From Annona cherimola (taxonomy: Eukaryota > Streptophyta > Magnoliopsida > Magnoliales > Annonaceae): a stretch of DNA of 64,000 bases. The stretch is taken from assembly GCA_030490835.1 (NCBI GenBank), contig CM059971.1, positions 24,855,817 through 24,919,816 on the forward strand, read 5' to 3'. The number at the start of each line of letters is the position of its first letter. Position 1 is the first letter of the stretch. This document shows, in pieces, positions 17,611 through 40,469 of the stretch. Under the pieces are notes generated by a model, which was not told where the DNA came from, made no database searches, and worked only from the letters and a program-made list of their open reading frames with translations. The position numbers were made by a program, and so were the translations under genes.

Positions 17611-17643
<33 letters not shown>
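17180..17643 (+). other. Pyrimidine-rich leader and A run before the copia extra ORF
   Basis: The stretch 17180-17610 is almost entirely C and T on the + strand, with CTCTCTCT runs and TTTCTCCGGC motifs. A run of about 33 A follows at 17611-17643. The next ATG, 30 bp later, starts the extra ORF. The layout resembles the 5' untranslated leader of a plant mRNA. Confidence 0.8.
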
Positions 17644-17646
<3 letters not shown>

Positions 17647-17672
17647 CAAATTCCAACTCCAAACCATCCCAA

Positions 17673-19238: not shown

Positions 19239-19551
19239 CAAAAAGGGGGAGAAAAGATCGGTTTAAGAGTTAGAGTTTCCTTTCGTTTTGGGTTGGGTAA
19301 CTTGTATCTAGGTTTCATTTTGTTTTTCATTGCATTTTGTAAAAATGAAACAGATATACATGAAAGATGTTTTATGCTTGACATGAATATTTTGAGTGAA
19401 TTATGAAAATAATGCTCTGTCATGAATATGTATATGCTCTGCTTTCTATGGTAATATGTTTGAATGCTCTGTTTTTTACATGAACTTGCTTAAATACTCA
19501 AAAAGGTATCAACTCAAATGTAGTTTTGTCAATCATCAAAAAGGGGGAGAT
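19239..19551 (+). other. Copia 3' untranslated region and polypurine tract
   Basis: Non-coding, with TGAAT/ATGCTCTG motifs. It ends in AAAAAGGGGGAGA at 19539-19550, the plus-strand primer, one base before the 3' LTR. Confidence 0.9.
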
Positions 19552-21265: not shown

Positions 21266-21270
21266 GATAC
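21266..21270 (+). repeat. Target-site duplication GATAC, right copy (copia)
   Basis: It directly follows CCAACA, and the level-2 repeat unit three resumes with TCCCCGACTGG. Confidence 0.97.
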
Positions 21271-21870
21271 TCCCCGACTGGCGGGTTGAATTGACACACG
21301 GGTTAAGTATATTTTCTCCTATAAAAATATATATATGTATATTATTTATATATAAATATATATACATATATATTATTTTCAAAAACTACTTTTCCCAACG
21401 TGGATACTCCCCGACTGGCGGGTTGAACTGACACACGGGTTAAGTATATTTGCTCCTACAAAAATATATATATGTATATTATTTATATATAAATATATAT
21501 ATACATATATATTATTTTCAAAAACTACTTTTCCCAACGTGGATACTCCCCTACTGGCGGGTTGAATTGACACACGGGTTAAGTATATTTTCTCCTATAA
21601 AAATATATATATGTATATTATTTATATATAAATATATATATACATATATATTATTTTCAAAAACTACTTTTCCCAACGTGGATACTCCCCGACTGGCGGG
21701 TTGAATTGACACACGGGTTAAGTATATTTTCTCCTATAAAAATATATATATGTATATTATTTATATATAAATATATATATACATATATATTATTTTCAAA
21801 AACTACTTTTCCCAACGTGGATACTCCCCGACTGGCGGGTTGAATTGACACACGGGTTAAGTATATTTTC
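21271..21870 (+). repeat. 139-bp tandem array in the level-2 5' LTR, units 3-7
   Basis: Continuation after the copia insertion. Unit four has the variants GAACTGACAC and TTTGCTCCTAC, shared with the 3' LTR. Unit five has CCCCTACTGG against CCCCGACTGG in the 3' LTR, one of the few differences between the LTRs. Confidence 0.95.
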
Positions 21871-22050
21871 CCTCTTATGAAAATAAAAATAAATATATAT
21901 GTATTTTCTATAAAAATATATCAGAATATACATATATATTCAAAGGCATCCAAAAATTAAGATTTTGACTTCTAAGATTATATAAATATATATATACATA
22001 TATATATATATATCAAAAAAAAAATGATGACGACTTCTTCGCTCAATCCG

Positions 22051-22580
22051 AGCCAAAAATCTCTAAAAAGCCCAAGCTGGCTCAAAATTTTCCAAAAAAA
22101 GCCCAAGCTGGCTCAAAATTTTCCAAAAAGCCCAAGCTGGCCCAAAAATCTCCAAAAAGCCCAAGATGGCTAAAAACTCTCCAAAAAGCCCAAGCTGGCC
22201 CAAAAATCTCCAAAAATCCCAAGATGGCTAAAAATTCTCCAAAAAGCCCAAGCTGGCTGAAAATTTTCCAAAAAGCCCAAGTTGGCCCAAAATTCTACAA
22301 AAAAGCCCAAGATGGCTAAAAACTCTCCAAAAAGCCCAAGATGGCTAAAAACTCTCCAAAAAGCCCAAGCTGGCTCAAAATTTTTCAAAAAGCCCAAGAT
22401 GGCTAAAAACCCTCAAAAAAGCCCAAACGGGCTCAAAACTCTTCAAAAAGCCCATGATGGCCCAAAACTCTACAAAAAAGCCCAAGATGGCTACCAACCC
22501 TCCAAAAAGCTTGAGATAGCTCAAAAATCTCCAAAAAGCCCAAGATGGCTCAAAAATCCCCCAACAAGCCCAGTTGGGCT
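22051..22580 (+). repeat. ~30-bp AAAAGCCCAAG tandem array (5' LTR)
   Basis: About 18 degenerate units of the form AAAAAGCCCAAGATGGCT followed by AAAAACTCTCC or CAAAATTTTCC. It yields open frames on both strands (proteins rich in KSPRWLK or GFLENF) that are by-products of the repeat. The 3' LTR copy is at 39139-39670. Confidence 0.92.
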
Positions 22581-22875
22581 CAAACCCTTTTTAATGGTCA
22601 AAGTTGACCTAAAAATACTTTTAAACCCGGTTAAATCCATTTCTTGGTAAAACCACCCAATTATTCAATCCAGAGGCTGAAAGCGGGAGACGCTGGTTTC
22701 TTGTACAAGTACAGAAGCTGAAAGCGGGACACGCTGGTCTGCTGTGTAAATCCAGAAGCTAAGAGCGCACTTAGTTTGCTGTGTAGGGTCACTAGTGTAG
22801 CCGACGGGCCCCTCACTAGTTCCCAAACTGAGTCATCGCTGGTCGACGGGCTAAGCGTAAACTCATATTTATGTC

Positions 22876-23040
22876 ATGGCGCGTGGCGTCATGTACCTCA
22901 TATTCAAATTATGGCGCGTGGCGTCATATACCCCATATTTAAGTCATGGCGCGTGGCGTCATGTACTTCATATTCAAGTTATGGCGCGTGGCGTCATATA
23001 CCTCACATTCGAGTCACGGCGCGGGGCGAAGTGTACTCAT
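22876..23040 (+). repeat. 35-bp GGCGCGTGGCGTCAT tandem array (5' LTR)
   Basis: Four full 35-bp units starting ATGGCGCGTGGCGTCAT, alternating ATGTACCTC and ATATACC variants (a 70-bp higher order), plus a diverged part unit. It is near the LTR end. Confidence 0.92.
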
Positions 23041-23377
23041 TTATCTTTATATTTTTGTTAGACACGATTTTTCGTGCACTTGTAAAGACGTAGAAGGATC
23101 TTCTACGCACTTCATTACTATTAAGCATTTTTTTTTGGACCATTGTATTCAGCTCTTTTAATCAAGGGTTTTCTCGTTAGAGATGTAAAATCAGAATGTA
23201 GAACACAATGCAAAATATTTCTGTGATATACTTTTCGGACTCGGTTAAAGAATTGGATGCTTTAAAATTTTGCTGGGAAATTAATTAAGCATTTATTCTC
23301 AAAGCCACAGGGAAACAATTTTATCTTTAACCAAGTGTATGAATTATGATATGATTTTCTCACGAGGCCGGAACAAA

Positions 23378-23484: not shown

Positions 23485-26400
23485 ATGGCACATTCGATGG
23501 CTTTCGGATTCTTGCCCAATGGTGGTTTTGTCATTTCTATGCCAAACCACATGGATGCGGCTATCCCGCATCATTTTATTCGTGTACCAGAGAAGCCGGA
23601 GCACCGTGTCTATCGACACGTCGACTACTCTCCTGCAGCGATAAAGCAAAGAAGAGACCGATTTGCGCTACTCAAGGAGCCTCTTATTGTTCAAAGCTCG
23701 AAGACTACTCCTATTCAACCAACAAAGTCTCTGCAGGCGCCAATCCGAATGGGCCCACCTGCTCTACGGTCAAACTATGCCGAAAAGTCTGCCCGTAGGC
23801 TTGCTGCACCAGCCCAACCAGCAGCACGACAGCCTGCAGGACAACCTGTCTTGTGGTCCCATTCCATGAAAAGGCCTGCAAGACGATCTACTGCAACTCG
23901 GCTAGCGCCAGCTTGCCGGCCAGAAGCCATTGTTCCCCAAAATGGGGGCAAAACTGTGCCAAATCTTGTTCAATGCACCATCACTCGCCAATTTGGTCGG
24001 GCCGCCTCAAGGATTGTTAACCTAGCCCCCCGACCTAGCCAAGGTGACACCCAGGAGCGGAAGAAGTTAAGAAGAGAAACCAAGTTTTCTCAGCTGGATG
24101 CTTCATTGGCCGATGGAGGAGATGACCAATTCAAGCCGCAAGGACCTATTGTTGTCCGATCCGGTTTAGGCACCTTGCGATTTGTCATCCCTGACCCGAC
24201 GCATTCGCCCCATCAGTCAACCGATGCTCCATCTAGCTCACAAGCTAGAGTCAAATCTCCAGGTCACTATGATACTGCCAACATAGTGACGGTTCCTCAT
24301 CACGTATCAAGGAAACAAAGGAGAAAAGCGCAGCAGAAAAAGCAGTTCGGGAAAACAACTTCCCGGTTAAACTTGAAGGCTTCATCACCACTGCCACCAG
24401 GACCGAGGTATATGCTGTTCTCACACCCCCGACAAAGGGGTAGGCCACAAAAGAAGCCACTACAGAACTCTCACAAATTGAGAGTGCCTCAAAAGCCAAG
24501 ACTCTTTAGCAGGTGGCAGTATCCCCAGAGGCGCCATACGACGTATCCACGTTCGGTGCTCAGGCTGATCCCTGATTTTATACACAAAAATCAATTCGCC
24601 TCATTGATCAGACTGAGGGAGGATATGACTTATGCGCCTGTCGTGGCCCCGTCTCGAGAAAAGCACCGGATGCCGCACCCCAAGAGAGAAGCTAAAAGGA
24701 GGAGACATCTCCTCCAGACGACGGAAGTCAACATGGTGGACCTCACCCAGCCAAGCACTTCCAAAGCGTCGGATATGTTAACCCGGTCAAGGGCAGCCGC
24801 AATGCCCATTACACCGCCATTCTGTAGCCTCTCTCACCCTGAAGGGATCAGGGCCGCCCTCCCAAGAGGTCAATTTGAAGCCTCTTACATGGTGGGCGAA
24901 GAAGAAGAGGTTCTTACACCCAAGTCTCAGCTCATTCATGACCTCCGGGAGGAGATTAAGAGTATGAAACGGGCTATGGAAACTCAAGGCAACAAGACAT
25001 CAGGTTCCCATCAACCGCCATCACCAAGGAACCGTCAATCGGTCCATCAACCCGAGAAACCAGTCAGGCAGCGGACCGAGGAAGATGAAAATGCAGAATT
25101 GGAGCCAGGCTTTCTGCAGTTCAATAACCTACGTATCAATACCCCTCGAACGCAAGACGCGCGGGTAAACACACCCATGGGGTCTCCACCCAGGTATATT
25201 GCACAGAAGGAGATGGTACATCAGCTTGTGGCCGAATGCCTTCGTCGACAGGCACCTCAACTCACTGGGGTCCCTACAACGACAATCAACAGGCCTTATC
25301 CCCCAGAGGTTGAAGCGGAGCTCCTACCTAGAGATTTGAAGCCACCAAAAATCCAATTCGATGGGACTGGGAGCGCGTTAAAGCACCTGGCATCATTCCA
25401 CTATGCCATGGGCAATTGGGCGCACCATTCAAATTTTTGTCTTCGAATGTTTCCCAATACTCTTTCCGGTGATGCTTTCCAGTGGTACATATCTCTCCCA
25501 ATCGGCTCGGTCCAAACATGGGAAGAGATGAAAGAAATGTTCACCTCCCGATTCGTTGATACCACACGAGAAGTACAACTATCGGAATTATCTACCTTGT
25601 CCCAAAAGAAGGACGAGCCGGTTGAAGACTACATCACTAGATGGCAAAGGGCCGCTAATCGATGTCAAGCACCCCTCTCTCAAGCAATGAAGGTCAATCT
25701 TTGCCGAAATGGCATCAAGACGGAAATCTCGTTGCTGATGAATGAACAACTAAGTACATTTCAGGCCCTAGCTATAGAAGCTTGTCGAAAAGAATATTTG
25801 TTGTCTCAGCAAAAAGCCTGGAAGAAGGAGTCATCCACAACTACTATGTTCAAGAAGAAGAAAACTGGAGAGACCTCTGCAAATACTACAGAGGTTAAGA
25901 AGCAGCCAGATAAAGCAAAGCCGCTTGTAAAAGAGCAGCCTGCAAGACCCTTCCGAAGAGAGGAAATCCAATATGCCTTTGGAGAAGATGACGTGGAGAC
26001 GCTATTCCAGCACCTCATGTCGACCGGGCTATTCGAGTTGCCTGCCCCAAAAAGGCCAGAAGAAGTTGGACGCACTTCTCACCAGCGATATTGCAGTTAC
26101 CACCGATATGTCGGTCACCCCACTAAGAAGTGTTGGGATCTCCAAGCAATATTGCAAGATTACATTGATAAGGGGGTTATAAAACTCAGTCCTCCAGCGC
26201 AAGCTTCATCAAATGTTGTGACAATTGAGATAGCAGAAAAGGGTGATTGGGAAGTGGTTCGAAAACCACCAAGCCTAAGACAGACAAAAAGATGTCTCAA
26301 AGATTTATGCAGAAAAGACAAAAGAATAAGGGATAAGGCCATTCTCCCTTTCTTCTCAAGGCATTTGAGGCAATCCTCACGGGTGCAACCATTCATGATC

Positions 26401-29400
26401 ATGGACTTTTTGCAGCCCGAATTGCTACTCCCATTCTATCAACGACTTGCTAGGAGATCACCTCGACCAGAAAAAGAAAGATACATTCTCGAGGAGTTAC
26501 CAAAAACAAGTTCATGTGAGAATGGTCTAGATAGCAACAACGGAGAAACCGAAACTTGCTATCATATAAATGCGTCTGCATCCAAGCCTGCAAAGCGGCG
26601 AAGAACTGCCTCGGTGCTCATCCCTAACTACACCAAGTTTGAAGTTGGGATGTCACCGGTAAACCATATCATCACGTATTTGCGAGAATCTCGGCTTTTG
26701 CCAGCATCTTGGGAAACCAGAGTGGAATATTTCCGGTACTCACTGGGGGAATCAGTGATGTCTTGGTACCAAGATAATCATATCGAAGAAATTACCGAGT
26801 GGGTCATCTTGATAGATGCATTCTTGGTCCGCTTCCTGTCAAGGCAAAGAGAGCAGTTCCCTAGTAATTACTTGAGGGAAATACAATACAGTCAAGAATC
26901 TACTGCCCATTACGTAAATTATCTCAGAGACAGTACATGGAGTGATCCCTTGGCCATATGGTTGCCTGAACCTGAAATGGTCACGAAGTACCTTTCGGAT
27001 GCGGTATGCCCTCCGGCTGACAATGGGTACAAGACCTTTGGAGCTAAAACTTTCATAAAGGCAATCCGGTGGGTCGGCAATGAAGGCTTCAAACAAGAGG
27101 CAATCTTTAGCGACGCTGAAGGTTTTGGGAGGACAAATCAACTCCAAGTTCTGCATGTGCTGCAGTTAAACGATGCGCCCATTCTTCGAGTGTTCCCTTT
27201 CTTAACTAGGGAGTTAAGCTATGATTGGCCGCATATTCAGTTATTCCACGAGAATCATAAGTACGCATTGCCGCACTTGTTCGATTATTCACTGGCGGTC
27301 TGTCAAATGGGGCAAACAGAAGAGTTTGCACTCGGGCACTTTGTTTTGAGCTTGGCCCATGACAGTTGTGCCCTTCTCTGGATCTCCTCGCTCCCCGAAG
27401 AAGCATTTGGTTCTTGGGAAGAGTTCGTTGATATGTTTATCCTAAGATTCTACGAATATGAAACAGAGTTCCCTCCAGAGATGATCGAAGTCATGCACCC
27501 CCTATCAGGAGAATCTCAATACGACTACATCTTGAGATGGATAAACTGCAGAATAATCAACCAAAAATTCGACAAAGAAGAAATCATGGTTCATCAGTGC
27601 ATCAAGTCAATGAGTGGGTATTTTCCTGAAATCCCAAAAGTGCAGCCATTTTTCTCAGATGTACTACGGACATTGGCTACAAATATTCAGGACTCTGCCT
27701 CTTGCAATATGGTGCAAGTTGAAGAAGATGTTCTTGCAATTCTTCGATCTGGTCGAATCACACCAGAAAACAAGGGTAAAGCCCCGGCACAAGAAGATCG
27801 TACTCAGCCAGAGCAGCACATACCAGCCGATCATCGAAAATCCTCAGTAAGCTATGATGTCCTTGGACACTTGAAGCGACTCCCTGCTCGACTCAGTATT
27901 TACGATGCCTTGCAGTTGTCACAAGAAGCCAGGGATGCACTGGTAAGTGCTCTGACAGATGAAAATGTCCGTCTTGCTTACCTGGTCGACGCCGCTGAAT
28001 GTGATGAGGTTATTTCATTCACTGATGAGGATATGTTGCTTGGAGACGTTAATCACAACCGACCCTTATATGTTACGGGCAACCTGGGCGGTGAACTGGT
28101 CAACAGAATCATGATCGATGTCGGGTCTGCAATTAATATCTTGCCCCTTCGAACACTCAGGAGGATCGGAATTTCTCCATCAGCGTTAAAAGACACTAGT
28201 GTGGTGATTCACGGGTTTAATCAAGGGACTCAAAAGGCCATGGGCCTGATTGAGTTGGAACTAAGCATAGAAGATTTCTGCACCGAAATCCCATGCTTTG
28301 TGATTAATGCTCCGACCTCATATAACTTGCTGCTGGGAAGGCCTTGGCTCCACAGTAATAAGATAATCGCATCAACGGTGCATCAATGCTTCAAGTACTG
28401 CAAGGATGGAGTCGAAAAAAGGATTTTTGCTGACCATAAACCTTTCACAACGGCGGAATCATTTTACTCTGATGCTAAGTATTATGACTTGGCATCTGCT
28501 GTCAACACATCAAGGAAGGCAGTTGAAGCGACCACACGCGAAGGTCAGCAGGAGGTATCTCAGGCTCCCCCCGCCCCAGTAAGCACAGACATATTCTCAA
28601 AGGGTGAGAAAATGGAAGGTCAAGGTCGTGGTCGAGGGCGCGGTCATGGACGAGGGACGACAGAACCAAGGGCTCAATTTCAAACCAAATTTGAAAATAT
28701 GAGCCTCGATCCAGTGCATCCACTACCACGACAACGACAGGGGGCAACCATACCACCTCCTACCAGCTATAGCAACGCTGCTGCAGGATCACGGTTCTAC
28801 TTGGACCTCGAAGTCCTGAAAAAGATTGCTAAACCGCCTCGAGCCGATTCCCCTAGGTTTGAGGTGGATCTGGAAGCTCTTCGGAGATTTCGGAATCAGG
28901 CCAATGAGGAAGCCAAGTCACTTTGCTATGAGAGTGACGGAATGGCCACTGAGGCCGCTCACCAAAATCAAAAACCTAAGGAAACGCTCGATGAGGTTTT
29001 AGCAATGCTCGTGGGGTTTAATGTATCTGCTCCATGTGTGCAGGAACCTCAAGATGAAAAATTTGCCCAAAAACATTTCATAAAGCAATATGGCAAGGTT
29101 TACGGTAGCCCTAACAAATCCTCTTGTTTGCCCACCGCTAAGCTCAAGAAATGGGATTTTCATCACTATAGCAGAGAAAGCAAGAAAATTATGGATTTGA
29201 TGGGATTCTATCCCGATGAACCACATCTATCAGGCCTCGGAAGCGACATCCCTATCCCGTTATCCGAAAGGCCCCCTGGTTTTCAAAAGGGTAACAAAAG
29301 ACTCGGCCTTGGGTATAAAGAAGAAGAAGACGGCAACTTCGCCACCACCTACTGCGTCTCCACAAGTGATGACTCCAACAATGATGAAGAGGCATTAATG

Positions 29401-32400
29401 GAACCAGAGGATGCTCCACCTGCGATTGAGGATGGAGGACAGCCTACTATTGACGTACTTGAAGAGTTCAATCTCGGGACTGAGGAGGACCCGAGACCCA
29501 TTTTTATCGCCAAAAACCTGGCCGAAAAAGAAAAGGTGGCATTGAGGCAGCTTTTAAGTGAATTCAAAGATGTTTTTGCTTGGGGGTATTCTGAAATGCC
29601 AGGTCTCAACCCCACGATTGCAATGCACCATCTGCATATTACGCGGGATAAAAAGCCAGTCAAGCAAGCTCCGAGAAGATTTCGACCAGAGCTCGAAGAA
29701 CAAATCATCAAGGAAGTTGAAAAACTCATTGATGCTGAATTCATTCGGGAAATCAAATTTCCAAAATGGATTTCTAGCATTGTTCCTGTCAAAAAGAAAA
29801 ACGGGCAGATCCGCATTTGCGTAGATTTTCGAGATTTAAACGAAGCATGCCCTAAAGATGAATTTCCTCTTCCTTTCACTGATTTGCTAATCGACAGCAC
29901 AGCTCTGTACGACACATTCTCCTTTATGGATGGATATTCGGGATATAATCAAATCAAGATGGCTCCAGCAGATGAAGCCGCAACAGCATTTCGAACACCG
30001 ATGGGTGTCTTTTGCTACAAAGTCATGCCTTTTGGTCTTAAGAATGCTGGCGCAACTTATCAAAGGGCCATGCAAAATATATTTCATGATATGTTACACA
30101 AACATGTCGAGTGCTATGTCGATGACCTGGTCGTAAGATCTGAAGGTCACAATAAGCATAAAAATGATTTGAGATCGGTATTCTTGCGCCTAAGAAAGTA
30201 TGATCTCAAGATGAATCCTCTCAAATGCGCATTTGGAGTATCGTCTGGAAAATTCCTCGGATTCATAATCCGTCAAAGGGGAATCGAGGTTGATCCACTC
30301 AAAACGGAAGCAATTCAAAATATGCCGCCTCCACGAAATCTCAGAGAACTTAGGAGTCTACAAGGCCAATTGTCATATATCCGACGTTTCATCTCCAACT
30401 TATCCGGCCGGTGCCAGCCTTTTCACAAGTTGATGAAAAAAGATACGACTTTCCAGTGGGACGCGAAATGCCAACAGGCCTTCGAAGCCATCAAAGAATT
30501 GCTGCAAAATCCTCCTGTTTTGACAACTCCAGTAAAAGGAAAGTCACTCATTCTCTATATTGCTGCCAGCCCACAATCACTGGGGGCATTGCTCGCACAA
30601 GAAAATGCCCAAGGCAAAGAACAAGCCGCCTATTATCTCAGTCGACGATTATTGCAAGCTGAATGCAATTATTCCTCGATCGAGAAGATTTGTCTAGCAT
30701 TGGTTTTTGTGGCACAAAAGCTAAGACATTACTTCCTCGCGCATCAGATCATACTTATATCGAAGGTCGATCCCCTCAAGTTCCTGATCACTAAACCAAT
30801 GCTTTCAGGACGCCTAGCAAAATGGTCACTGCTGCTATCTGAGTTTGATATCAAATATGTGCCACGAAAGGCAGTAAAAGGGCAAGTATTGGCAGATTTC
30901 CTAGCAGCCCATCCTCTTGAAGAAGAATTTCCCATCTTAGAAAACCTACCTGATGAGAAGGTTTTCTATGCAAATGATGATCCAATGTGGCAAATGTATT
31001 TCGATGGCGCTTCAAAGCCATCCGGAGCTGGTGTTGGAATTGTCGTAGTCTCCCCTCATAAAGACTTATTCCCGCACTCATATTTTCTTGGAAGGAGCAC
31101 AACAAATAATGAAGCTGAGTATGAGGCCTTACTCATCGGCATGGAACTTCTTCTGCAATCAGATATTTTATTTGTGCGAATATTTGGGGACTCTGAATTG
31201 GTTATTAAACAGTTAAATAATCAATATGAAGTACACCAGCCTCATTTGCGAAAATATTATGACAAAGCTCAAACTTTGTTGGCAAAGTTCGAAATGGTTT
31301 CGGTTGAGCATGTTCCTCGATCAGAAAATATAGTCGCTGATGCACTATCAAAGTTGGCCAGTATTCTCGCCTTTAATGAGCTTGATGACATGACAATTCG
31401 AGTACAAAGACTAGAAGATGATGAAGAGCTCCAAGTAAATCAAATCGGACGGTGCGTATCCGAGGTAACTACAAACAATGATGATTGGCGCATCCCCATC
31501 ATCAATTACCTCAAATATGGTATTGAACCAGATGATCCAAGTGCAAGGAAGTCACTGAGAAAGGCTGTTTCGCGATATACTGTGTTTCAAGACGATTTGT
31601 ACCGGATTGCTTTTGATGGGCTTTGGCTTCGCTGTATTGACGGAAATGATATATGTCAAGTTCTTCAAGAGACGCACTCCAGCGAATGCGGCGCCCACCA
31701 ATCTGGACGTCGTCTTTATCATAGGATCAAAATGTTGGGCTATTATTGGCCCACAATGGTCCAAGACTCCATCAATTTTGCGAAATCCTGTGAAGCCTGC
31801 CAAATGCATGGAGATATTTATCATATTCCTGCTTCAGTAATGTCTCCAGCACCTATCTCATGGCCCTTCTCTTGGTGGGGTTTTGATATTGTCGGTCCGA
31901 TAAACCCGTCGTCATCTAAAGGACACTTATATATTTTAGCCGCTACAGATTATTTCTCTAAATGGGCAGAAGCTAAAGCTTACAAGAGAGTCCGAGCGCA
32001 AGAGGTGGTTGAATTTATCAAGCACAAAATCATCTACCGTTATGGTGTTCCATATCAAATCACCTCAGATAATGGCACACCATTCAAAAATGACAAAGTA
32101 AATCAGTTATGCCGAAAGTTTGGAATCAAACAAGTATTCTCATCGCCCTATTACCCACAAGGGAATGGTCAAGCAGAGGCGTTTAACAAAAATATCATTC
32201 GAATCCTCAAAAGGACCACTATGAAAAATAAGCGTGATTGGCACGAGAGGTTACCCGAAGCATTGTGGGCTTACAGAACCACACATCGAACTGCAACGGG
32301 AGCAACACCATATTCATTGCTCTTTGGCACGGAAGCGGTTTTACCAGTGGAAATTCAGTTAGCATCTTTAAGGGTTGCCATCCATTCTGGGTCAACTACT

Positions 32401-32733
32401 GAACAACAAGCCAAACTTCGCTTCGACGAGCTCGAGGCACTAGATGAAAAGCGAGTTCAAGCACGGCAACGAATCGAACTATATCAAGCTCGAATGGTCG
32501 AAGCGTACAATAAAGTCGTGAGGCATCGCTCATTCAAAAGAGGAGATTTAGTGCTAAAGCTACGCACAGAGCTTATGGCCGGGGGCAAACTTACCGGCAA
32601 ATTCGAGCCTAAATGGGAAGGGCCTTACATCATTGAGAGGGTCCATGGCAATGGCACATATGAAGTTGTTAATTGCGGAAATCAAATGAAAGCAACCGTG
32701 AATGGGAATTACTTAAAAAGATACTATCCATGA
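23485..32733 (+). CDS. Intact Tat-type Gag-Pol polyprotein (3082 codons)
   Basis: One open frame encodes all replication proteins. Gag-like module 1 spans about 613-775 (FQWYISLPIGSVQTWEEMKE), with a C-x2-H-x4-H-x4-C knuckle at C870-C883. Further gag-like modules lie at about 1050-1172 and 1232-1402. The aspartic protease spans about 1526-1645, active site D1545-V-G-S, with LLLGRPWLH near its end. A Gly/Arg stretch (GRGRGRGHGRG) lies near 1715. Reverse transcriptase spans about 2062-2280 with YVDD at 2211-2214. RNase H spans about 2322-2477. A second, archaeal-type RNase H spans about 2503-2632 (D2507 in YFDGAS). Integrase follows, with a zinc region from about 2729 and a catalytic triad D2801, D2862, E2898 (35 residues between the last two). 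There is no chromodomain. The aRH domain places it in the Tat lineage. It is far longer than a usual Tat gag-pol. The start is the first ATG of the frame, 110 bp after the LTR. Confidence 0.95.
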   Translation: MAHSMAFGFLPNGGFVISMPNHMDAAIPHHFIRVPEKPEHRVYRHVDYSPAAIKQRRDRFALLKEPLIVQSSKTTPIQPTKSLQAPIRMGPPALRSNYAEKSARRLAAPAQPAARQPAGQPVLWSHSMKRPARRSTATRLAPACRPEAIVPQNGGKTVPNLVQCTITRQFGRAASRIVNLAPRPSQGDTQERKKLRRETKFSQLDASLADGGDDQFKPQGPIVVRSGLGTLRFVIPDPTHSPHQSTDAPSSSQARVKSPGHYDTANIVTVPHHVSRKQRRKAQQKKQFGKTTSRLNLKASSPLPPGPRYMLFSHPRQRGRPQKKPLQNSHKLRVPQKPRLFSRWQYPQRRHTTYPRSVLRLIPDFIHKNQFASLIRLREDMTYAPVVAPSREKHRMPHPKREAKRRRHLLQTTEVNMVDLTQPSTSKASDMLTRSRAAAMPITPPFCSLSHPEGIRAALPRGQFEASYMVGEEEEVLTPKSQLIHDLREEIKSMKRAMETQGNKTSGSHQPPSPRNRQSVHQPEKPVRQRTEEDENAELEPGFLQFNNLRINTPRTQDARVNTPMGSPPRYIAQKEMVHQLVAECLRRQAPQLTGVPTTTINRPYPPEVEAELLPRDLKPPKIQFDGTGSALKHLASFHYAMGNWAHHSNFCLRMFPNTLSGDAFQWYISLPIGSVQTWEEMKEMFTSRFVDTTREVQLSELSTLSQKKDEPVEDYITRWQRAANRCQAPLSQAMKVNLCRNGIKTEISLLMNEQLSTFQALAIEACRKEYLLSQQKAWKKESSTTTMFKKKKTGETSANTTEVKKQPDKAKPLVKEQPARPFRREEIQYAFGEDDVETLFQHLMSTGLFELPAPKRPEEVGRTSHQRYCSYHRYVGHPTKKCWDLQAILQDYIDKGVIKLSPPAQASSNVVTIEIAEKGDWEVVRKPPSLRQTKRCLKDLCRKDKRIRDKAILPFFSRHLRQSSRVQPFMIMDFLQPELLLPFYQRLARRSPRPEKERYILEELPKTSSCENGLDSNNGETETCYHINASASKPAKRRRTASVLIPNYTKFEVGMSPVNHIITYLRESRLLPASWETRVEYFRYSLGESVMSWYQDNHIEEITEWVILIDAFLVRFLSRQREQFPSNYLREIQYSQESTAHYVNYLRDSTWSDPLAIWLPEPEMVTKYLSDAVCPPADNGYKTFGAKTFIKAIRWVGNEGFKQEAIFSDAEGFGRTNQLQVLHVLQLNDAPILRVFPFLTRELSYDWPHIQLFHENHKYALPHLFDYSLAVCQMGQTEEFALGHFVLSLAHDSCALLWISSLPEEAFGSWEEFVDMFILRFYEYETEFPPEMIEVMHPLSGESQYDYILRWINCRIINQKFDKEEIMVHQCIKSMSGYFPEIPKVQPFFSDVLRTLATNIQDSASCNMVQVEEDVLAILRSGRITPENKGKAPAQEDRTQPEQHIPADHRKSSVSYDVLGHLKRLPARLSIYDALQLSQEARDALVSALTDENVRLAYLVDAAECDEVISFTDEDMLLGDVNHNRPLYVTGNLGGELVNRIMIDVGSAINILPLRTLRRIGISPSALKDTSVVIHGFNQGTQKAMGLIELELSIEDFCTEIPCFVINAPTSYNLLLGRPWLHSNKIIASTVHQCFKYCKDGVEKRIFADHKPFTTAESFYSDAKYYDLASAVNTSRKAVEATTREGQQEVSQAPPAPVSTDIFSKGEKMEGQGRGRGRGHGRGTTEPRAQFQTKFENMSLDPVHPLPRQRQGATIPPPTSYSNAAAGSRFYLDLEVLKKIAKPPRADSPRFEVDLEALRRFRNQANEEAKSLCYESDGMATEAAHQNQKPKETLDEVLAMLVGFNVSAPCVQEPQDEKFAQKHFIKQYGKVYGSPNKSSCLPTAKLKKWDFHHYSRESKKIMDLMGFYPDEPHLSGLGSDIPIPLSERPPGFQKGNKRLGLGYKEEEDGNFATTYCVSTSDDSNNDEEALMEPEDAPPAIEDGGQPTIDVLEEFNLGTEEDPRPIFIAKNLAEKEKVALRQLLSEFKDVFAWGYSEMPGLNPTIAMHHLHITRDKKPVKQAPRRFRPELEEQIIKEVEKLIDAEFIREIKFPKWISSIVPVKKKNGQIRICVDFRDLNEACPKDEFPLPFTDLLIDSTALYDTFSFMDGYSGYNQIKMAPADEAATAFRTPMGVFCYKVMPFGLKNAGATYQRAMQNIFHDMLHKHVECYVDDLVVRSEGHNKHKNDLRSVFLRLRKYDLKMNPLKCAFGVSSGKFLGFIIRQRGIEVDPLKTEAIQNMPPPRNLRELRSLQGQLSYIRRFISNLSGRCQPFHKLMKKDTTFQWDAKCQQAFEAIKELLQNPPVLTTPVKGKSLILYIAASPQSLGALLAQENAQGKEQAAYYLSRRLLQAECNYSSIEKICLALVFVAQKLRHYFLAHQIILISKVDPLKFLITKPMLSGRLAKWSLLLSEFDIKYVPRKAVKGQVLADFLAAHPLEEEFPILENLPDEKVFYANDDPMWQMYFDGASKPSGAGVGIVVVSPHKDLFPHSYFLGRSTTNNEAEYEALLIGMELLLQSDILFVRIFGDSELVIKQLNNQYEVHQPHLRKYYDKAQTLLAKFEMVSVEHVPRSENIVADALSKLASILAFNELDDMTIRVQRLEDDEELQVNQIGRCVSEVTTNNDDWRIPIINYLKYGIEPDDPSARKSLRKAVSRYTVFQDDLYRIAFDGLWLRCIDGNDICQVLQETHSSECGAHQSGRRLYHRIKMLGYYWPTMVQDSINFAKSCEACQMHGDIYHIPASVMSPAPISWPFSWWGFDIVGPINPSSSKGHLYILAATDYFSKWAEAKAYKRVRAQEVVEFIKHKIIYRYGVPYQITSDNGTPFKNDKVNQLCRKFGIKQVFSSPYYPQGNGQAEAFNKNIIRILKRTTMKNKRDWHERLPEALWAYRTTHRTATGATPYSLLFGTEAVLPVEIQLASLRVAIHSGSTTEQQAKLRFDELEALDEKRVQARQRIELYQARMVEAYNKVVRHRSFKRGDLVLKLRTELMAGGKLTGKFEPKWEGPYIIERVHGNGTYEVVNCGNQMKATVNGNYLKRYYP

Positions 32734-32837: not shown

Positions 32838-34031
32838 ACAGGGAAAGTACTTCGCTTATGATGGTGAGAAGAGCTTGTTTACAGTGGGGGTTCTTCCACA
32901 ACAAAATTTTGAATTCGGTGTTGTCCTTGAAGACGTGTCCTCAAACAAAGTTAGTGGGAATAGTAGTCCTCATGGTAATGACAGCTCCGGGGAGGGAGAT
33001 CGGAAAAGGCAAAGGTGTTCGCTGCTACAATTCCAATGAAAGTTATTGCAAATGCTCTGCAAGGACACGATTCCTAGAGTTCTCAAGAAGCCTTAAGGGT
33101 TCTAGATATAATCCTAAGGCAGCATGCTGCAAAGCAGGGTTGCCTTCGGGTTCGGCAGTCATTTCTTCACAATGATCCTAGTAACTTTGTTGACTTTGGA
33201 GGTGGAGTTCTGGGTTGTCGTGGTTTTCATTCTAGCTTCCGAACCAGTCAAGGGGGGCTTCTCTCTAAATATTGATGTGATTATAAGGCCTGACTCTGTT
33301 GATGGATTTCTGATGGCTAATCAAAATATTAGAAATCATGGTGAAATTGATTGGGGAAAAGCAAAGAAAACCCTGAGGAATTTGAAGGTTTTCTGCAAAT
33401 ATGTCATGCATTAATGTTGGAAAGCCAAAACGCCCCACTTACTATCCTGCCGAGCTCTGCTCTCTAGTTTCATTGCAAAGGTATACTAAATCTCGATCAA
33501 CTTTGCAAAAATCATCACTGGTTGAAAAACCACGACAGAAACCACAAGAAGGGATGCAAACTTTAAGTAATGCATTAAGAAACAGCAACTATGGTGCTGA
33601 TGAAATGTCGAAGGCATGTGGTGTTTCGATCAATGGTAACTTCACTCAAGAAGAAGGCCGTGTCTTGAATGCACCAAAGTTAAAAGTTGGTAACGATGAA
33701 TTCTTTCCTGGAAATGGTCGGTGGAATTTCAACAATAAGAAACTTATGGACCCTCAAAAAAAAAAAAAAAAATATGGGCCACTGTAAACTTTTATGCTCG
33801 CTGCGATGTTCGGTCTCTTGCTCGTGATATGCACAAATGTGGGGCGATGAAAGGCATTGTCATTGCAGAACCATTTGATTACTTTGAAGAGAATCCTCAA
33901 TTCAGGCGTGCTCCACCTACTGTTAGGGTCGACAAGATATTCGAAATCATTCAGTCAAGGCTGCCAGGAGCCCCTAAGTTTCTTCTCTGTGTTTTACCTA
34001 AGAAAAAGAATTGTGATATATATGGCCCATA
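32838..34031 (+). pseudogene. AGO4-like: Captured, broken ARGONAUTE4-clade fragment
   Basis: Sense-strand frames spell consecutive blocks of a plant AGO4-type Argonaute: FAYDGEKSLFTVG, VVLEDVSSN and GDRKR (N-terminal region); IPMKVIANALQG, LDIILRQHAAKQGC, QSFLHNDPSNF and GVLGCRGFHSSFRT (N/L1); WGKAKKTLRNLKV; then CINVGKPKRPTYY, LCSLVSLQRYTK, SLVEKPRQKPQE and GRWNFNNKK (end of PAZ and L2); then NFYARCDVRSLARDM, FRRAPPTVRV and PGAPKFLLCVLP (start of MID). Most of PAZ, the rest of MID and all of PIWI are missing. Lesions: a stop in GHDS-stop-SSQ, a 1-nt insertion near GGLLS, a missing block after RKRQR, a few missing codons after LNIDV, and an A run at about 33756-33771. Coding blocks join without introns, so capture was probably by mRNA. 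It lies between pol and the polypurine tract. Confidence 0.88.
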
Positions 34032-34172
34032 ATAAAAATGTATATATATATATATATATAAAAAAAAAAAAAAAAAAAAACCCTCATGAGTCAAGAAAAG
34101 CCTGCCAAACAACATGTCAGGAATCACGCCTTTACAAGTAGCCCACAACGGCATAATTCCTGAGGGGGCATT
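34032..34172 (+). other. Level-2 3' untranslated region and polypurine tract
   Basis: A (TA)n run and a run of about 20 A (34061-34080) follow the AGO fragment. Then comes a short unique stretch and the polypurine tract GAGGGGG at 34162-34168, four bases before the TGATGGGG LTR start. Confidence 0.85.
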
Positions 34173-34223
34173 TGATGGGGTATATTTTGGGCAGTCTATG
34201 AAACTATACATATATATAATATA

Positions 34224-34257
<34 letters not shown>

Positions 34258-34393
34258 CAGTGGTGCGTGCAAGCCGCAGAGAGAGATTCTCTGCCTACGG
34301 AGAGAAAAAGTGCAAAAGAAAGAAGCCGGAGCGCAGGAGGATTTCGCGCCGGAAAAGCAGTCATCGGCCGCGTGGTAGGAAGATCGCACGGGG

Positions 34394-34603
34394 TGAATGG
34401 CTGTGGCGAGCCACGGAGGAAATCGCCTGCTGTTTGCTCCTCCTCCATCTTGTTGGAGCTGTCGGCCTTCGACGATCTCGCCTCCTTTAAGCGCGCCGAG
34501 GAGGAAGATGGCGCCGTGGTCGGTAAGGTTGGGTTTTGGTACAGAATGGGTTCGAGAAAGATGGGGCTTGAGGAGCGAACCCCTCTCATTATCGCCGCCT
34601 CGT
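34394..34603 (+). pseudogene. Ankyrin/CCCH N-terminal fragment, 3' LTR copy
   Basis: Counterpart of 6361-6570, with one substitution in the segment (C for T near 34519 within GGCGCCGTGG). Same LLELSAFDD and EERTPL blocks. Confidence 0.6.
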
Positions 34604-34843
34604 CAGTAGCTCAAGCACCACGATTCCGAAACTGTATACGTCCGACTCCTTCATTGTCTGCCTCGACAGCACCACCTCCAGCGAGACGTAGCAGACAGAC
34701 CCCACCACCGGTGCCATCGTGGCCGAAGTCGACGCTTCGGGCGCTGCCGACGACTGGACGCTCACTAGCCGGTCGAAGCCGAAATCCGAAAGGTGGACCT
34801 CAAGATCCGCGCTGAAGAAGACGTTCTGAGACTTCACGTCGCC
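34589..34843 (-). pseudogene. LRR receptor kinase fragment, 3' LTR copy
   Basis: Counterpart of 6556-6810 with the same DFG and KESDVYSFG motifs and the same SPE-to-SLE change. Confidence 0.85.
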
Positions 34844-35160
34844 TTCTGTTGATTTCGGGAATGTCGTGCACCGGCGGCCCACGCTGCCTCCATTGCAGCA
34901 GCAGCGCTTCCATCAAGACCAGGGAGCCACCGCCTCCTTTGACAACGCACCAACTTTTGGGTCTTTGAAGTGCAAGCTTTGGAACCAGCATGGGTTGCCT
35001 AATGATAGTTCTGCTGCCAGGGGTCCTCCCAAAACCCATTAGAAGCTTGGCTCTGAGCAGAGCGGCAGCGGCAGCAGCTTTGCGAGTCCCAAAAGCTCAT
35101 CAGTTCCTGATTCTGCTCGTGCTAATCTCCTATCGCGCCTGTTTTGCCGCCGTGAAGAGG

Positions 35161-35298
35161 CAGTTACCGTCCTCCTCCACGTCCTGCAATATCTTCAGGA
35201 AATCCGGCTGCTGAAGGTAACCGCATATTGTTGGGTCCACCGTCAGCTTTGCCCACACGTCTGGCCCTTGAAAGATTTTCTCGAACGACGATTTTCGA
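35161..35298 (-). pseudogene. STI1/HOP fragment with OTU-like end, 3' LTR copy
   Basis: Counterpart of 7128-7265. VWAKLTVDPT, YLQQPDFLK and DGNCLF are all present. Confidence 0.7.
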
Positions 35299-35353
35299 CA
35301 GCGAGAACAAGCTTTAGAGAAAGCAGTGACCGGTTCGACCTCAGTCTACAAGC

Positions 35354-35593
35354 ATGGCTGATGAGGCTACCAGTGCTGCTGAGACCTCTACCCCAGCTCT
35401 TGGGGAACCCATGGACATCATGACTGCCCTTCAGCTTGTCTTGAAGAAGGCATTAGCACATGGCGGTCTTGCTCGTGGTCTTCATGAAGGTGCGTAGATG
35501 ATTGAGAAGCATGCTGCCCAGTCGTGCATGCTAGCTGAGGATTGCAACCAGCCCGACTATGTCAAGACTGGTCAGGGCTCTCTGTGCTGATCA
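35354..35593 (+). pseudogene. Ribosomal protein eS12 fragment, 3' LTR copy
   Basis: Counterpart of 7321-7560 with the same TAG stop after HEGA, showing that the lesion was already in the parent element. Confidence 0.9.
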
Positions 35594-35696
35594 CGGGAAT
35601 GAGAGCCGTTGATTTGAAGAAGGATTTGAACGGGGAAATGGCCGTGGAAGGAGGGCGAAGCAAACTGGAGAGAGCTGCGTCGGTGTTCAGGTCGAG

Positions 35697-35793
35697 CTGA
35701 TGGGGTGCGTTGATCTAGGATTCGGCTTCAGCTATAAAGAGATACCGGAGCTAGGCAACACGCTGCCGGCGCTCAAACTATTCTGTCAGATGG
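35697..35793 (+). pseudogene. DUF1685-like fragment, 3' LTR copy
   Basis: Counterpart of 7664-7760 (GCVDLGFGFSYKEIPEL). Confidence 0.6.
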
Positions 35794-36753
35794 GCCAGAA
35801 ATTCTTGATGAAGCAGACGACAGATCTGCAGCTGGAAACAAAGACGCTTCTCCGGTGAAGAAGCTGCTGAAAGTCGCGGGATCGATGGCCGGGAGAAATT
35901 TCATAAAAACGAAAATGAAAATGAAAATGAAAATGAAAGCAGAAATATTTACAGCATCGCTGAATATTAACAATTTCAGAAAAATCAGCCTTGGCGACCA
36001 ATTACAGAGAATCGCAGCGCATGCACATCGCATCACCAGCTCTGACACCCACTCGACGTCTGGAGCTGCGACTGCTGCTTCAGCCCGATCAATCACATTC
36101 TCCTTGCTCAGCTTCTCATACATGCGAGTCCTCAAATCCCTTCCGGATTCAACCCTCTCCATTGGCTCTTCCGCAATGCGGCCTCTGTCCCATTCATCCA
36201 ACCACGCAACACTCGTTGCGGGTGCAGTCGGCGTCGACGGAAGACTGATGAACGCCGGACGCAGATTCGAACCTCTTGGCGACAGCCCGAACTGCATAAC
36301 CCACGAAGCAGGCGCCGATTTCGCCTTGCTCAGCTGCAGCTGCCTCAGCGAAGCGAGGACCTCGTTCACGGAGCCAGATGCAGCAGATGGGAGGCGGATC
36401 GACGGGCTTACTGGCAACAGAGGCGGCGAGTCCGACGGTGATGAGAGCGGAAACGAGATTAAGGTCAAAGTAGGAGAGGCCGCAGCGGCGGCGAACGGCG
36501 ACTTGGACGTGCAGCAAGAGCCTATCTCCATCACCTGGCGGAGCGGCGAACCGTCGTACGAATCGGCCATGGTCGCGACCCCCTTTAAGCTCTGCTGCTG
36601 CTGCGGCGGGCGCACGCGTAGCTGCTGCGGGGTGTGCGCAAAGAAGCAAACGCGGCGCCTGCAGGCCGTCCCGTCCTTGCAGGGCTGCGTCCGGTAGCGC
36701 GATGGGTGAAGCGACCGGGAGTTCCGGGCGGAGGTATGCACCATCGGCGGCAT
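35773..36753 (-). pseudogene. CCCH zinc-finger fragment, 3' LTR copy
   Basis: Counterpart of 7740-8720. The 326-codon frame is identical, including the C-x5-C-x4-C-x3-H finger. Confidence 0.85.
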
Positions 36754-36844
36754 CCAGCATGTGAACCTGGTGCGCTTTTGGGGCTTCTGCTCCGAAAACT
36801 CTCACCGCCTCCTGGTCTACGACTACATGAATAATGGACCGCTG
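36728..36844 (+). pseudogene. S-receptor-type kinase fragment, 3' LTR copy
   Basis: Counterpart of 8695-8811 ([20 protein letters not shown]). Confidence 0.8.
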
Positions 36845-36890
36845 GCTCCACGGCAAGATGGCCAGAGAAGGAGGAGCCGGTCTCGACGGG

Positions 36891-37435
36891 CCAATGCGAC
36901 TGGGACTGTTCGTGGCGGCGGCAGCTAGTGCCAACATTTTCGAAGGCCACGTGAACCCTGCCGTCACCTTTGGCCATTCCTTGGCGGAGACATCAGCCTG
37001 TTGCGGGGCATCCTCTACTGGAATGCGCAGCTGCTCGGATCCACCGTCGCCTGCTTGCTTCTCCGTTTCTCCACCAGAGGGCCGAAAACCGGCACCTTCA
37101 GGCTTTCGGCGCATGTCGGCATCTAGAATGCTCTGGTTTTTGGGATCGTGATGACGCTCGGGCCTGTGTGCACAGTCTACGCGACGGTCTTGGACCCGAA
37201 GAAAGGGAGCTTGGGCACGATCGTGCCGCTGGCCATCGGCTCCATCATGGGGGCCAACATCTTGGCGGGTGGGGCCTTCGACGGCACTTCCATGAACCCA
37301 GCTGTGTCATTCGGGCCGGCGTTGGTGAGCTGGTCGTAGGAGAGCCACTGGATTTACTGGGTGGGTCCTCTGATCGGCGCCACCATTGCCGCTCTCGTCT
37401 ACGATCTCTTCTTCACCGAAGGAAAACACCCATGA
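36891..37435 (+). pseudogene. TIP aquaporin fragment, 3' LTR copy
   Basis: Counterpart of 8858-9402 with both NPA motifs and the same frameshifts and stops. Confidence 0.9.
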
Positions 37436-37695
37436 GCCGCTCTAGTGACGCGGGCTCCAGTTCTCGAGTCTCTTGCTTCCTTTCAATCCATGCATTTGGT
37501 GTCATGGGTCTGGTGCTTTGGTCGGCAGAGCGGAGAAATGCGCCTAACCCAGAAGAGAGGAAAGGAGAGCTGGACGAACTAAAAACGGGAAGAAACGAGA
37601 CCACATGAACAAAGCTGGACAGCGCAGGCGAAGCGTGATGTAGAAGCAAAAGAGGCAGCAAGCTCTGTCGCTGAACGGCTATTCAGCGCGAAGAC

Positions 37696-37823
37696 GGTTC
37701 CGCGGGAAAGCGGTTCCGCGGGAAAGTGGTTCCGCGGGAAGACGGTTCCGCGTGAAGGCGGTTCCGCGGGAAGACGGTTCCGCGTGAAGGCAGTTCCGCG
37801 GGAAGACGGTTCCGCGTGAACTT
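37696..37823 (+). repeat. 16-bp tandem array, 3' LTR copy
   Basis: Eight units, same order as 9663-9790. Confidence 0.9.
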
Positions 37824-37865
37824 GCATCCACAGCCGCGGAACCTATCCCAGACCCGGCGAAAGCC

Positions 37866-37873
37866 TATAAATA
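37866..37873 (+). promoter_or_regulatory. TATA box of the level-2 3' LTR
   Basis: TATAAATA. In the 3' LTR it would drive read-out transcription through R/U5 into the level-1 pol remnant beginning at 40470. Confidence 0.8.
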
Positions 37874-38017
37874 GCCGCATTCGGCTACCCATTTGAACGA
37901 CGAGCGAGGAGAGGGCGAGGACGAGCAAGAGAGATCTCTCCCGCGCTCAAAAAAAAGAGGGAAGGTGAGTTCTCAGATATATATTTTTGAGTTTCTTTAA
38001 TATATATATATATATAT

Positions 38018-38960
38018 ATTATATATAAATATATATATACATATATATTATTTTCAAAAACTACTTTTCCCAGCGTGGATACTCCCCGACTGGCGGGTTG
38101 AATTGACACACGGGTTAAGTATATTTTCTCCTATAAAAATATATATATGTATATTATTTATATATAAATATATATATACATATATATTATTTTCAAAAAC
38201 TACTTTTCCTAACGTGGATACTCCCCGACTGGCGGGTTGAATTGACACACGGGTTAAGTATATTTTCTCCTATAAAAATATATATATGTATATTATTTAT
38301 ATATAAATATATATATACATATATATTATTTTCAAAAACTACTTTTCCCAACGTGGATACTCCCCGACTGGCGGGTTGAATTGACACACGGGTTAAGTAT
38401 ATTTTCTCCTATAAAAATATATATATGTATATTATTTATATATAAATATATATACATATATATTATTTTCAAAAACTACTTTTCCCAACGTGGATACTCC
38501 CCGACTGGCGGGTTGAACTGACACACGGGTTAAGTATATTTGCTCCTACAAAAATATATATATGTATATTATTTATATATAAATATATATATACATATAT
38601 ATTATTTTCAAAAACTACTTTTCCCAACGTGGATACTCCCCGACTGGCGGGTTGAATTGACACACGGGTTAAGTATATTTTCTCCTATAAAAATATATAT
38701 ATGTATATTATTTATATATAAATATATATATACATATATATTATTTTCAAAAACTACTTTTCCCAACGTGGATACTCCCCGACTGGCGGGTTGAATTGAC
38801 ACACGGGTTAAGTATATTTTCTCCTATAAAAATATATATATGTATATTATTTATATATAAATATATATATACATATATATTATTTTCAAAAACTACTTTT
38901 CCCAACGTGGATACTCCCCGACTGGCGGGTTGAATTGACACACGGGTTAAGTATATTTTC
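38018..38960 (+). repeat. 139-bp tandem array, 3' LTR copy (7 units)
   Basis: Seven uninterrupted units. Period is 139 bp except 137 bp between units three and four (two fewer AT bases), a variant shared with the 5' LTR. Open frames reading MSIQPASRGVSTLGKVVF on the minus strand are by-products of the repeat. Confidence 0.95.
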
Positions 38961-39138
38961 CCTCTTATGAAAATAAAAATAAATATATATGTATTTTCTA
39001 TAAAAATATATCAGAATATACATATATATTCAAAGGCATCCAAAAATTAAGATTTTGACTTCTAAGATTATATAAATATATATATACATATATATATATA
39101 TCAAAAAAAAAATGATGACGACTTCTTCGCTCAATCCG

Positions 39139-39670
39139 AGCCAAAAATCTCTAAAAAGCCCAAGCTGGCTCAAAATTTTCCAAAAAAAGCCCAAGCTGGC
39201 TCAAAATTTTCCAAAAAGCCCAAGCTGGCCCAAAAATCTCCAAAAAGCCCAAGATGGCTAAAAACTCTCCAAAAAGCCCAAGCTGGCCCAAAAATCTCCA
39301 AAAATCCCAAGATGGCTAAAAATTCTCCAAAAAGCCCAAGCTGGCTGAAAATTTTCCAAAAAGCCCAAGTTGGCCCAAAACTCTACAAAAAAGCCCAAGA
39401 TGGCTAAAAACTCTCCAAAAAGCCCAAGATGGCTAAAAACTCTCCAAAAAGCCCAAGCTGGCTCAAAATTTTTCAAAAAGCCCAAGATGGCTAAAAACCC
39501 TCAAAAAAGCCCAAACGGGCTCAAAACTCTTCAAAAAGCCCATGATGGCCCAAAACTCTACAAAAAAGCCCAAGATGGCTACCAACCCTCCAAAAAGCTT
39601 GAGATAGCTCAAAAATCTCCAAAAAGCCCAAGATGGCTCAAAAATCCCCCAACAAGCCCAGTTGGGCTCA
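39139..39670 (+). repeat. ~30-bp AAAAGCCCAAG array, 3' LTR copy
   Basis: Counterpart of 22051-22580 with one substitution found (AAAACTCTAC for AAAATTCTAC). Confidence 0.92.
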
Positions 39671-39963
39671 AACCCTTTTTAATGGTCAAAGTTGACCTAA
39701 AAATACTTTTAAACCCGGTTAAATCCATTTCTTGGTAAAACCACCCAATTATTCAATCCAGAGGCTGAAAGCGGGAGACGCTGGTTTCTTGTACAAGTAC
39801 AGAAGCTGAAAGCGGGACACGCTGGTCTGCTGTGTAAATCCAGAAGCTAAGAGCGCACTTAGTTTGCTGTGTAGGGTCACTAGTGTAGCCGACGGGCCCC
39901 TCACTAGTTCCCAAACTGAGTCATCGCTGGTCGACGGGCTAAGCGTAAACTCATATTTATGTC

Positions 39964-40128
39964 ATGGCGCGTGGCGTCATGTACCTCATATTCAAATTAT
40001 GGCGCGTGGCGTCATATACCCCATATTTAAGTCATGGCGCGTGGCGTCATGTACTTCATATTCAAGTTATGGCGCGTGGCGTCATATACCTCACATTCGA
40101 GTCACGGCGCGGGGCGAAGTGTACTCAT
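39964..40128 (+). repeat. 35-bp GGCGCGTGGCGTCAT array, 3' LTR copy
   Basis: Counterpart of 22876-23040, four units plus a part unit. Confidence 0.92.
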
Positions 40129-40464
40129 TTATCTTTATATTTTTGTTAGACACGATTTTTCGTGCACTTGTAAAGACGTAGAAGGATCTTCTACGCACTT
40201 CATTACTATTAAGCATTTTTTTTTTGGACCATTGTATTCAGCTCTTTTAATCAAGGGTTTTCTCGTTAGAGATGTAAAATCAGAATGTAGAACACAATGC
40301 AAAATATTTCTGTGATATACTTTTCGGACTCGGTTAAAGAATTGGATGCTTTAAAATTTTGCTGGGAAATTAATTAAGCATTTATTCTCAAAGCCACAGG
40401 GAAACAATTTTATCTTTAACCAAGTGTATGAATTATGATATGATTTTCTCACGAGGCCGGAACA

Positions 40465-40469
40465 GCACC
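40465..40469 (+). repeat. Target-site duplication GCACC, right copy (level 2)
   Basis: It directly follows GGAACA. The level-1 pol reading resumes from here. Confidence 0.95.

Follow-up and report, generated by a model that had tools for sequence, protein, structure and literature searches.

A broken cDNA of ARGONAUTE4 (AGO4) is carried by a young Tat-clade retrotransposon of Annona cherimola and by 37 of its relatives, and it is quite probable that this cDNA was acquired in one template switch of reverse transcriptase and has travelled as a passenger since. The element lies in the window, the whole stretch of 64,000 nt analysed here (C1:24855817-24919816), where it spans positions 6139-40464 and measures ~23 kb without a nested element. 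The 5-bp target-site duplication GCACC flanks both ends (6134-6138 and 40465-40469), and the LTRs, 6.3 kb long with TG at the start and CA at the end, begin with TGATGGGG at 6139 and 34173. The main parts of the element are on the plus strand: a 5' LTR interrupted by the nested element (6139-10323, 99.8% identical to the 3' LTR, and 21266-23375, 99.8% identical to 38356-40464), gag-pol as a single open frame of 3082 codons (23485-32733), the polypurine tract TTCCTGAGGGGGCATT (34157-34172), and the 3' LTR (34173-40464, 6292 bp). Across about 6.29 kb the two LTRs differ by three substitutions and a few small indels, a divergence of ~0.05%, and the element is thus very young. With 6.5e-9 to 1.3e-8 substitutions per site and year, its insertion would date to ~20-40 thousand years ago, or earlier given the slower rates of woody plants.

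Within gag-pol, Pfam recognizes gag, RT, RNase H, a second RNase H-like domain (RVT_3, residues 2506-2624 of the frame) and integrase, in that order, and reports no protease family at E 1e-3. Two LTRs, a target-site duplication and domains in gypsy order define a Ty3/gypsy LTR-retrotransposon, and the additional RNase H between RNase H and integrase, described in part of PMC6317226 as a mark of angiosperm Ogre/Retand elements of the Tat clade, assigns it to that clade. The resemblance to Ogre/Retand, as far as the excerpted portions of PMC6317226, PMC6431247 and PMC11963269 describe these elements, extends to giant size and extra ORFs outside gag-pol, and Ogre LTRs are given there as up to 6.5 kb. 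In contrast, Ogre gag-pol consists of two ORFs split by a putative intron whereas here it is one, and the extra ORF of Retand is antisense whereas the AGO4 relic is in sense orientation. The nested LTR element (10324-21265, plus strand), outside the AGO-bearing element proper, has its own target-site duplication (GATAC) and LTRs of about 1.72 kb with three differences between them; it is probably copia-type, as indicated by a Retrotran_gag_2 match among the control ORFs, and contains a Transposase_32-like ORF (17673-19238) just below cut-off. Elsewhere in the window, NB-ARC, Rx N-terminal and LRR domains among the control ORFs indicate a likely disease-resistance gene, probably at 53701-56042 as placed from ORF length. 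Rfam at gathering cut-offs gave no match in 5000-42000, and ARAGORN detected no tRNA across the window.

The AGO4 segment (32839-34030), in sense orientation, starts downstream of the pol stop (32733) and ends ahead of the polypurine tract. It begins with an N domain piece (32839-33015) that retains only 6 of the first 300 coding bases of AGO, of which the 37 other copies hold 145-225, and continues with an N/L1 piece (33006-33251) bearing a premature TAG where the host has GAG. There follow a frame-shifted piece from L1 to the start of PAZ (33253-33390), after which most of PAZ is deleted, the end of PAZ with linker 2 (33392-33755), an A-run of 17 corresponding to six in the host exon (33756-33772), and the start of MID (33773-34030), which stops a few bases into the next host exon, near an A-run. 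PAZ (1.1e-7) and ArgoL2 (2e-9) exceed their Pfam cut-offs, and ArgoN (1.2e-6) falls just below its own at 29.4 bits versus 30.9. The closest solved structure in the PDB is argonaute 10 for the linker-2 piece (2.1e-12), and the same chain for the N/L1 piece (2.1e-7). Searched singly, the N/L1, L1/PAZ-start and MID pieces gave no Pfam family and the MID piece no PDB match, yet all three align to host AGO4 exons. Without PIWI and most of PAZ, the window copy does not have the open frame with PAZ, MID and PIWI expected of a functional Argonaute. At its left join the segment shows an A-run followed by a G-run, for which a cap-derived origin might be envisaged, and the host itself has GGG at the same place. 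Scans of viral contigs for AGO and RT relatives returned pattern matches and no relative.

Comparison with the host exons identified the parent as a gene at C3:68.56 Mb (L062, minus strand, ~94% identical), found among genomic Piwi domains (66 candidates, all scored, 52 matches). The window segment aligns to it in ten blocks in exon order. Identity is 93.5-95.1% in eight of them and 79% and 89% in the two that contain gaps, and within the element borders the introns of the gene are precisely absent. This collinearity, establishing a processed, intron-free cDNA origin from the C3:68.56 Mb gene, ruled out chance similarity. Two further readings were discarded, namely an AGO pseudogene outside the element, given the position of the segment between the pol end and the polypurine tract, and exon skipping as the source of the PAZ deletion, which runs from inside one exon into the inside of the next. 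The first 12 coding exons of the parent, which extend to MID, are open and separated by GT-AG introns. At a distance of ~30 kb lies a tandem paralog (L061, C3:68.59 Mb), also AGO4-type and separated from the parent by a dS of 0.35; it is less similar to the window segment (75-89%), so that L062 alone is the parent. Ten further host places with Piwi have lower scores than L061, and among the places compared, a set from which C6:62.91 and C6:9.43 Mb stand apart, the segment is closest to L062. The name AGO4 we take from the domains and from familiar plant AGO4 motifs rather than from alignment to a named plant AGO4. In one copy (L034) an exon of the 5' UTR is retained and joined directly to coding exon 1, the 2.2-kb intron between them being gone. 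Synonymous divergence of the AGO segment from the parent is 0.07-0.11 in the eight copies listed, and the window copy carries 70 coding differences from host AGO4. These results substantiate the main points of an earlier note on this DNA, which had described AGO4-type blocks in sense between gag-pol and polypurine tract, intron-free and broken by a stop, a frameshift and loss of PAZ, beside an intact 3082-codon pol and near-identical LTRs, and had proposed a search for the parent gene. That the nested element splits the 5' LTR and that the LTRs hold several host-gene pieces had escaped it.

Relatives of the element were collected in two groups, separated by domain content. Group A derives from 595 first-look candidates found with the AGO/pol-end segment, of which 40, window included, were scored and the best 30, again with the window, were read; group B comprises eight copies found with Piwi, six of them made up of two overlapping loci each and counted once. 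In both groups the presence of AGO follows from the way the copies were found, and family members free of AGO may exist. In all, 48 places matched and 38 were read; the copy number is a lower bound. All 40 scored places match the AGO segment, the 39 outside the window at 84-95%; a fragment confined to one copy, which the earlier note had named as speaking against it, is thereby contradicted. In each of the 38 places read the segment has the pol end of this element on one side and the polypurine tract, slightly altered in some, on the other. In the B copies the pol end is followed by an AGO segment with PAZ and PIWI pieces and without the part from linker 2 to MID; one of them (L040) additionally lacks most of the N domain. 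The frame reaches the natural C-terminus SSMFFC in seven of the eight, followed by an immediate stop in four and by a stop seven codons later in three, and this ending was not found in the eighth. The two groups thus likely keep different parts of one near-full-length AGO4 cDNA that began in the 5' UTR and reached the natural stop. The extent given in the earlier note therefore holds for the window piece, and the original capture was likely much closer to the full transcript.

Damage common to the copies is informative about when the segment was broken. At the junction GGCGGAAAG|GTTTCT a GT within coding exon 1 is joined to exon 2, dropping 77 nt and with them the frame. This junction is found within five edits in 31 of the 38 copies, a 32nd (L023) has a further loss beside it, and the place itself is lost in six (the window copy and L002-L006); the 77 nt are missing from all 32 copies that keep the place and present in none of the 38. 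Loss of 77 nt at a GT fits the use of a cryptic splice site, and hence a mis-spliced mRNA as template. The TAG for host GAG recurs in every one of the 35 copies that have data at this codon (three of the 38 have none), and 13 sites are near-fixed in the copies relative to the parent, nine of them element-derived by comparison with the paralog. In a tree of the AGO segment the copies (37, with L040 excluded) form one clade, albeit with a support of only 0.69. Because junction, TAG and near-fixed sites are common to the copies, the damage is ancestral, and together these features point to a single capture of AGO4, already broken in the common ancestor of the copies. They also led to the rejection of several independent captures. 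Nor can the window insertion explain the damage, because at ~0.05% LTR divergence it is far too young; three LTR substitutions against 70 coding differences eliminate damage after insertion, in keeping with the earlier proposal that the defects predate the insertion and were propagated with the element.

Several observations concern the behavior of the copies among themselves. The A-run that has six residues in the host measures 4-32 among the 20 A copies, out of 30, that were examined for it, so that such runs mostly grow within the element, and similar runs border both AGO and LTR cargo. Copies L003-L006 (C2:88.305-88.357 Mb), L012/L013 and L024/L025 follow each other in one orientation at intervals of about 17 kb, a distance close to one LTR plus the internal region, which suggests tandem arrays with shared LTRs. 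The grouping of PIWI-bearing L041 with L029, which has no PIWI, in the AGO tree suggests recombination between elements; group B forms no clade in that tree, and recombination between copies is likely.

Pol and the AGO segment differ in constraint. Over pairs with data, dN/dS for the last 300 codons of pol is 0.13 (0.132), in counts that exclude L037, L038, L041 and L042 and are short for L034, L035, L039 and L040, whereas for the AGO segment it is 0.682 within A, 0.770 within B and 0.619 between A and B. Pol is thus under strong constraint and the AGO segment under weak or little constraint. Values for AGO remain below one in every set, which may stem from codon and transition bias or from some past constraint.

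The AGO4 segment is accompanied by a wealth of host-gene material in the LTRs. In the 3' LTR of the window copy a patchwork on both strands (34173-37413), repeated in the matching 5' LTR, includes a kinase piece (34592-34912, minus; Pkinase 1.2e-12), an STI1/HOP piece (35133-35345, minus; STI1-HOP_DP 3.7e-8), a 342-codon open frame (35776-36801, minus), a second kinase piece (36710-36925, plus; PK_Tyr_Ser-Thr 9.1e-6) and a spliced aquaporin (36900-37413, plus; MIP 4.5e-19), and further along lies a tandem array of period 139 (37999-39034). The 342-codon frame matches zf-CCCH_tandem below cut-off (1.4e-3) and has no match in the PDB; we take it to resemble plant CCCH zinc-finger proteins, in part from general acquaintance with that family. 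Intron loss was followed in one of these pieces, the aquaporin, which is 91% identical to a host gene at C6:18.62 Mb and lacks its intron of about 100 bp. Searched with 34480-37400 (161 candidates, 40 scored), modules of the patchwork recur elsewhere in other combinations.

In the other copies, for which the first 0.95-1.5 kb of the LTR was analysed, LTR starts are alike for tens of bases only; the likeness usually ends at an A-run, beyond which they diverge into 27 groups among the 38 copies by a 600-bp rule, or 19 if overlaps of at least 150 bp are merged by hand. The six longest ORFs from each of 24 LTR-start groups (144 ORFs) contain 32 Pfam families. The 25 of these that are listed are all cellular, some being two names for one gene, and include DUF1005 (1.2e-114), PP2C (1.6e-44), an auxin response factor (7.7e-34), raffinose synthase, HSP70, Toc75, Mago nashi and a homeodomain; scanned singly, seven of 20 LTR-start ORFs contained a family. 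As a control, 99 ORFs from 18 other blocks, all stretches of the window and only one of them LTR, yielded 15 families, of transposable-element, plant mobile domain and NLR type. The LTRs of this family thus hold host-gene pieces that differ in most related copies, one of them proven spliced, and the uptake of AGO4 appears to be one instance of a continuing acquisition of host mRNAs by this family.

Template switching onto host mRNA is the mechanism we infer, because the pieces are free of introns, their joins fall at A-runs and short shared words, and in other copies they are mostly in sense orientation (12 of 15 named cargo pieces, eight named by Pfam scans and seven by the analyst's own motif words). 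Simple switching to mRNA leaves unexplained the antisense cargo, amounting to three of these 15 pieces and three of five in the window LTR. According to this scheme, reverse transcriptase would have switched once to a mis-spliced, near-full-length AGO4 mRNA, and the broken segment would since have spread with the element as a passenger. AGO4 would have been caught early, within the internal region, while the LTRs would be where cargo turns over quickly, in a family that seems unusually prone to such switches and for which AGO4 was presumably no special target. Small RNAs, if made from the AGO segment, would then presumably have no needed function. That AGO4 was taken for being the effector of the element's own silencing finds no support as far as these data go, since the family has absorbed many unrelated genes and constraint on the AGO segment is weak.

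Even so, its sequence would permit an action of the segment at the RNA level. Matches to host AGO4, a point that the earlier note had wanted checked, do exist: the window copy and spliced AGO4 have in common 269 exact 21-mers and 226 exact 24-mers, with uninterrupted runs of 72 and 73 nt, while a pol control of 1.5 kb has no 21-mer in common with AGO4. Jointly the 38 copies cover 1541 of 1696 nt across the first 12 coding exons of AGO4; for those PIWI exons that were compared the coverage is 554 of 597 nt. It is possible that siRNAs from the segment act in trans on host AGO4, and the data support placing any role of the segment at the RNA level, as the earlier note did, although passenger status is likelier than a role. 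A counter-defence, in which element RNA would give rise to siRNAs or base-pair with the AGO4 messenger, so that AGO4 falls and RNA-directed DNA methylation acts less strongly on the element, is accordingly conceivable from the long exact identity, its absence from the pol control, the youth of the window insertion and the many copies, and a precedent is offered by miR820 of rice CACTA transposons and OsDRM2 (an excerpt of PMC3459959). It nevertheless appears unlikely, as recent common origin would by itself produce such exact matches and the family also holds many genes without known silencing roles. A combined scheme, with the LTRs as a rolling archive of spliced host mRNAs and AGO4 fixed because its siRNAs feed back on AGO4 and loosen the element's silencing, would be somewhat harder still to sustain.

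The same exact identity in dozens of copies could operate in the reverse direction, siRNAs from host silencing of the element spreading to the AGO4 gene and damping it, as a side effect rather than a trait of the element; the C3:68.56 Mb gene is indeed much closer to the element than its tandem AGO4-type neighbor, but its first 12 coding exons are open and not visibly decayed there, and this reading is improbable. Capture at the DNA level, by insertion beside an AGO4 pseudogene or by delivery of the pieces through a Helitron or Pack-MULE, would account for the mixed orientation of the LTR cargo, yet the constant position of the AGO segment inside the element in all places read and the precise removal of introns contradict it for both AGO4 and the LTR aquaporin, leaving it a very slim prospect. 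Least credible of all is a dominant-negative short AGO-like protein from PIWI-bearing copies, suggested by a 344-codon open frame over the L1 end, PAZ and PIWI pieces in L035, since this frame begins mid-gene and downstream of the common stop and the loss of frame, the part from linker 2 to MID is deleted along with the PIWI start, and dN/dS within B is as high as 0.77. With the PIWI start the first catalytic aspartate of AGO has presumably gone as well, judging by the familiar motif. The preferred reading remains that of a relic captured once from a processed AGO4 messenger and carried passively.

Few systems are directly comparable. One passage of PMC9289625 mentions LTR-retrotransposon consensuses of Asparagus officinalis containing ArgoL2, the Argonaute linker-2 domain; it gives no parent gene, Argonaute clade, intactness or silencing role, whereas here the captured cDNA was likely near full length and its parent gene is identified, and the capture in a monocot is perhaps independent. 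This was the only prior mention of Argonaute in LTR elements found in the portions of papers available outside subscription. The word 'argonaute' is absent from the text of a 2026 review of plant gene capture (PMC13317346), from two papers on extra ORFs (PMC11963269, PMC7264820) and from the cherimoya genome paper (PMC10934984). The giant (25 kb) Gypsy element of Phalaenopsis, treated in part of PMC9289625, likewise compares with Ogre, encodes gag-pol in one ORF and has a host-type RNA-pathway domain, a 2-ODD/AlkB m6A demethylase; its product is active as a demethylase in vitro, whereas the captured frame in Annona is broken in all copies read. The rice miR820/OsDRM2 pair, as presented in the excerpt of PMC3459959, similarly joins transposon sequence to a gene of its own silencing pathway, but there a DNA transposon produces a true microRNA of tested function, and the Annona case is one of an LTR element and a processed mRNA. 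Capture by abnormal template switching has been described for LTR-retrotransposons, with foreign RNA-derived sequence also in the LTR, and the earlier cases, so far as the accounts seen extend, concern single families or genome surveys, whereas here one family contains different host pieces in most sampled LTR starts.

The element and its relatives thus offer a natural case in which the parent gene, a recent insertion and many graded copies are available together with long identity to a gene of the transposon-silencing pathway, so that action of such relics in trans is directly testable with small-RNA data. For the family as a whole, the LTR cargo suggests that a retrotransposon can keep replicating while much of its LTR start is replaced by host-gene pieces, different in most copies, and such pieces might give rise to new promoters and chimeric transcripts as well as to false gene models.
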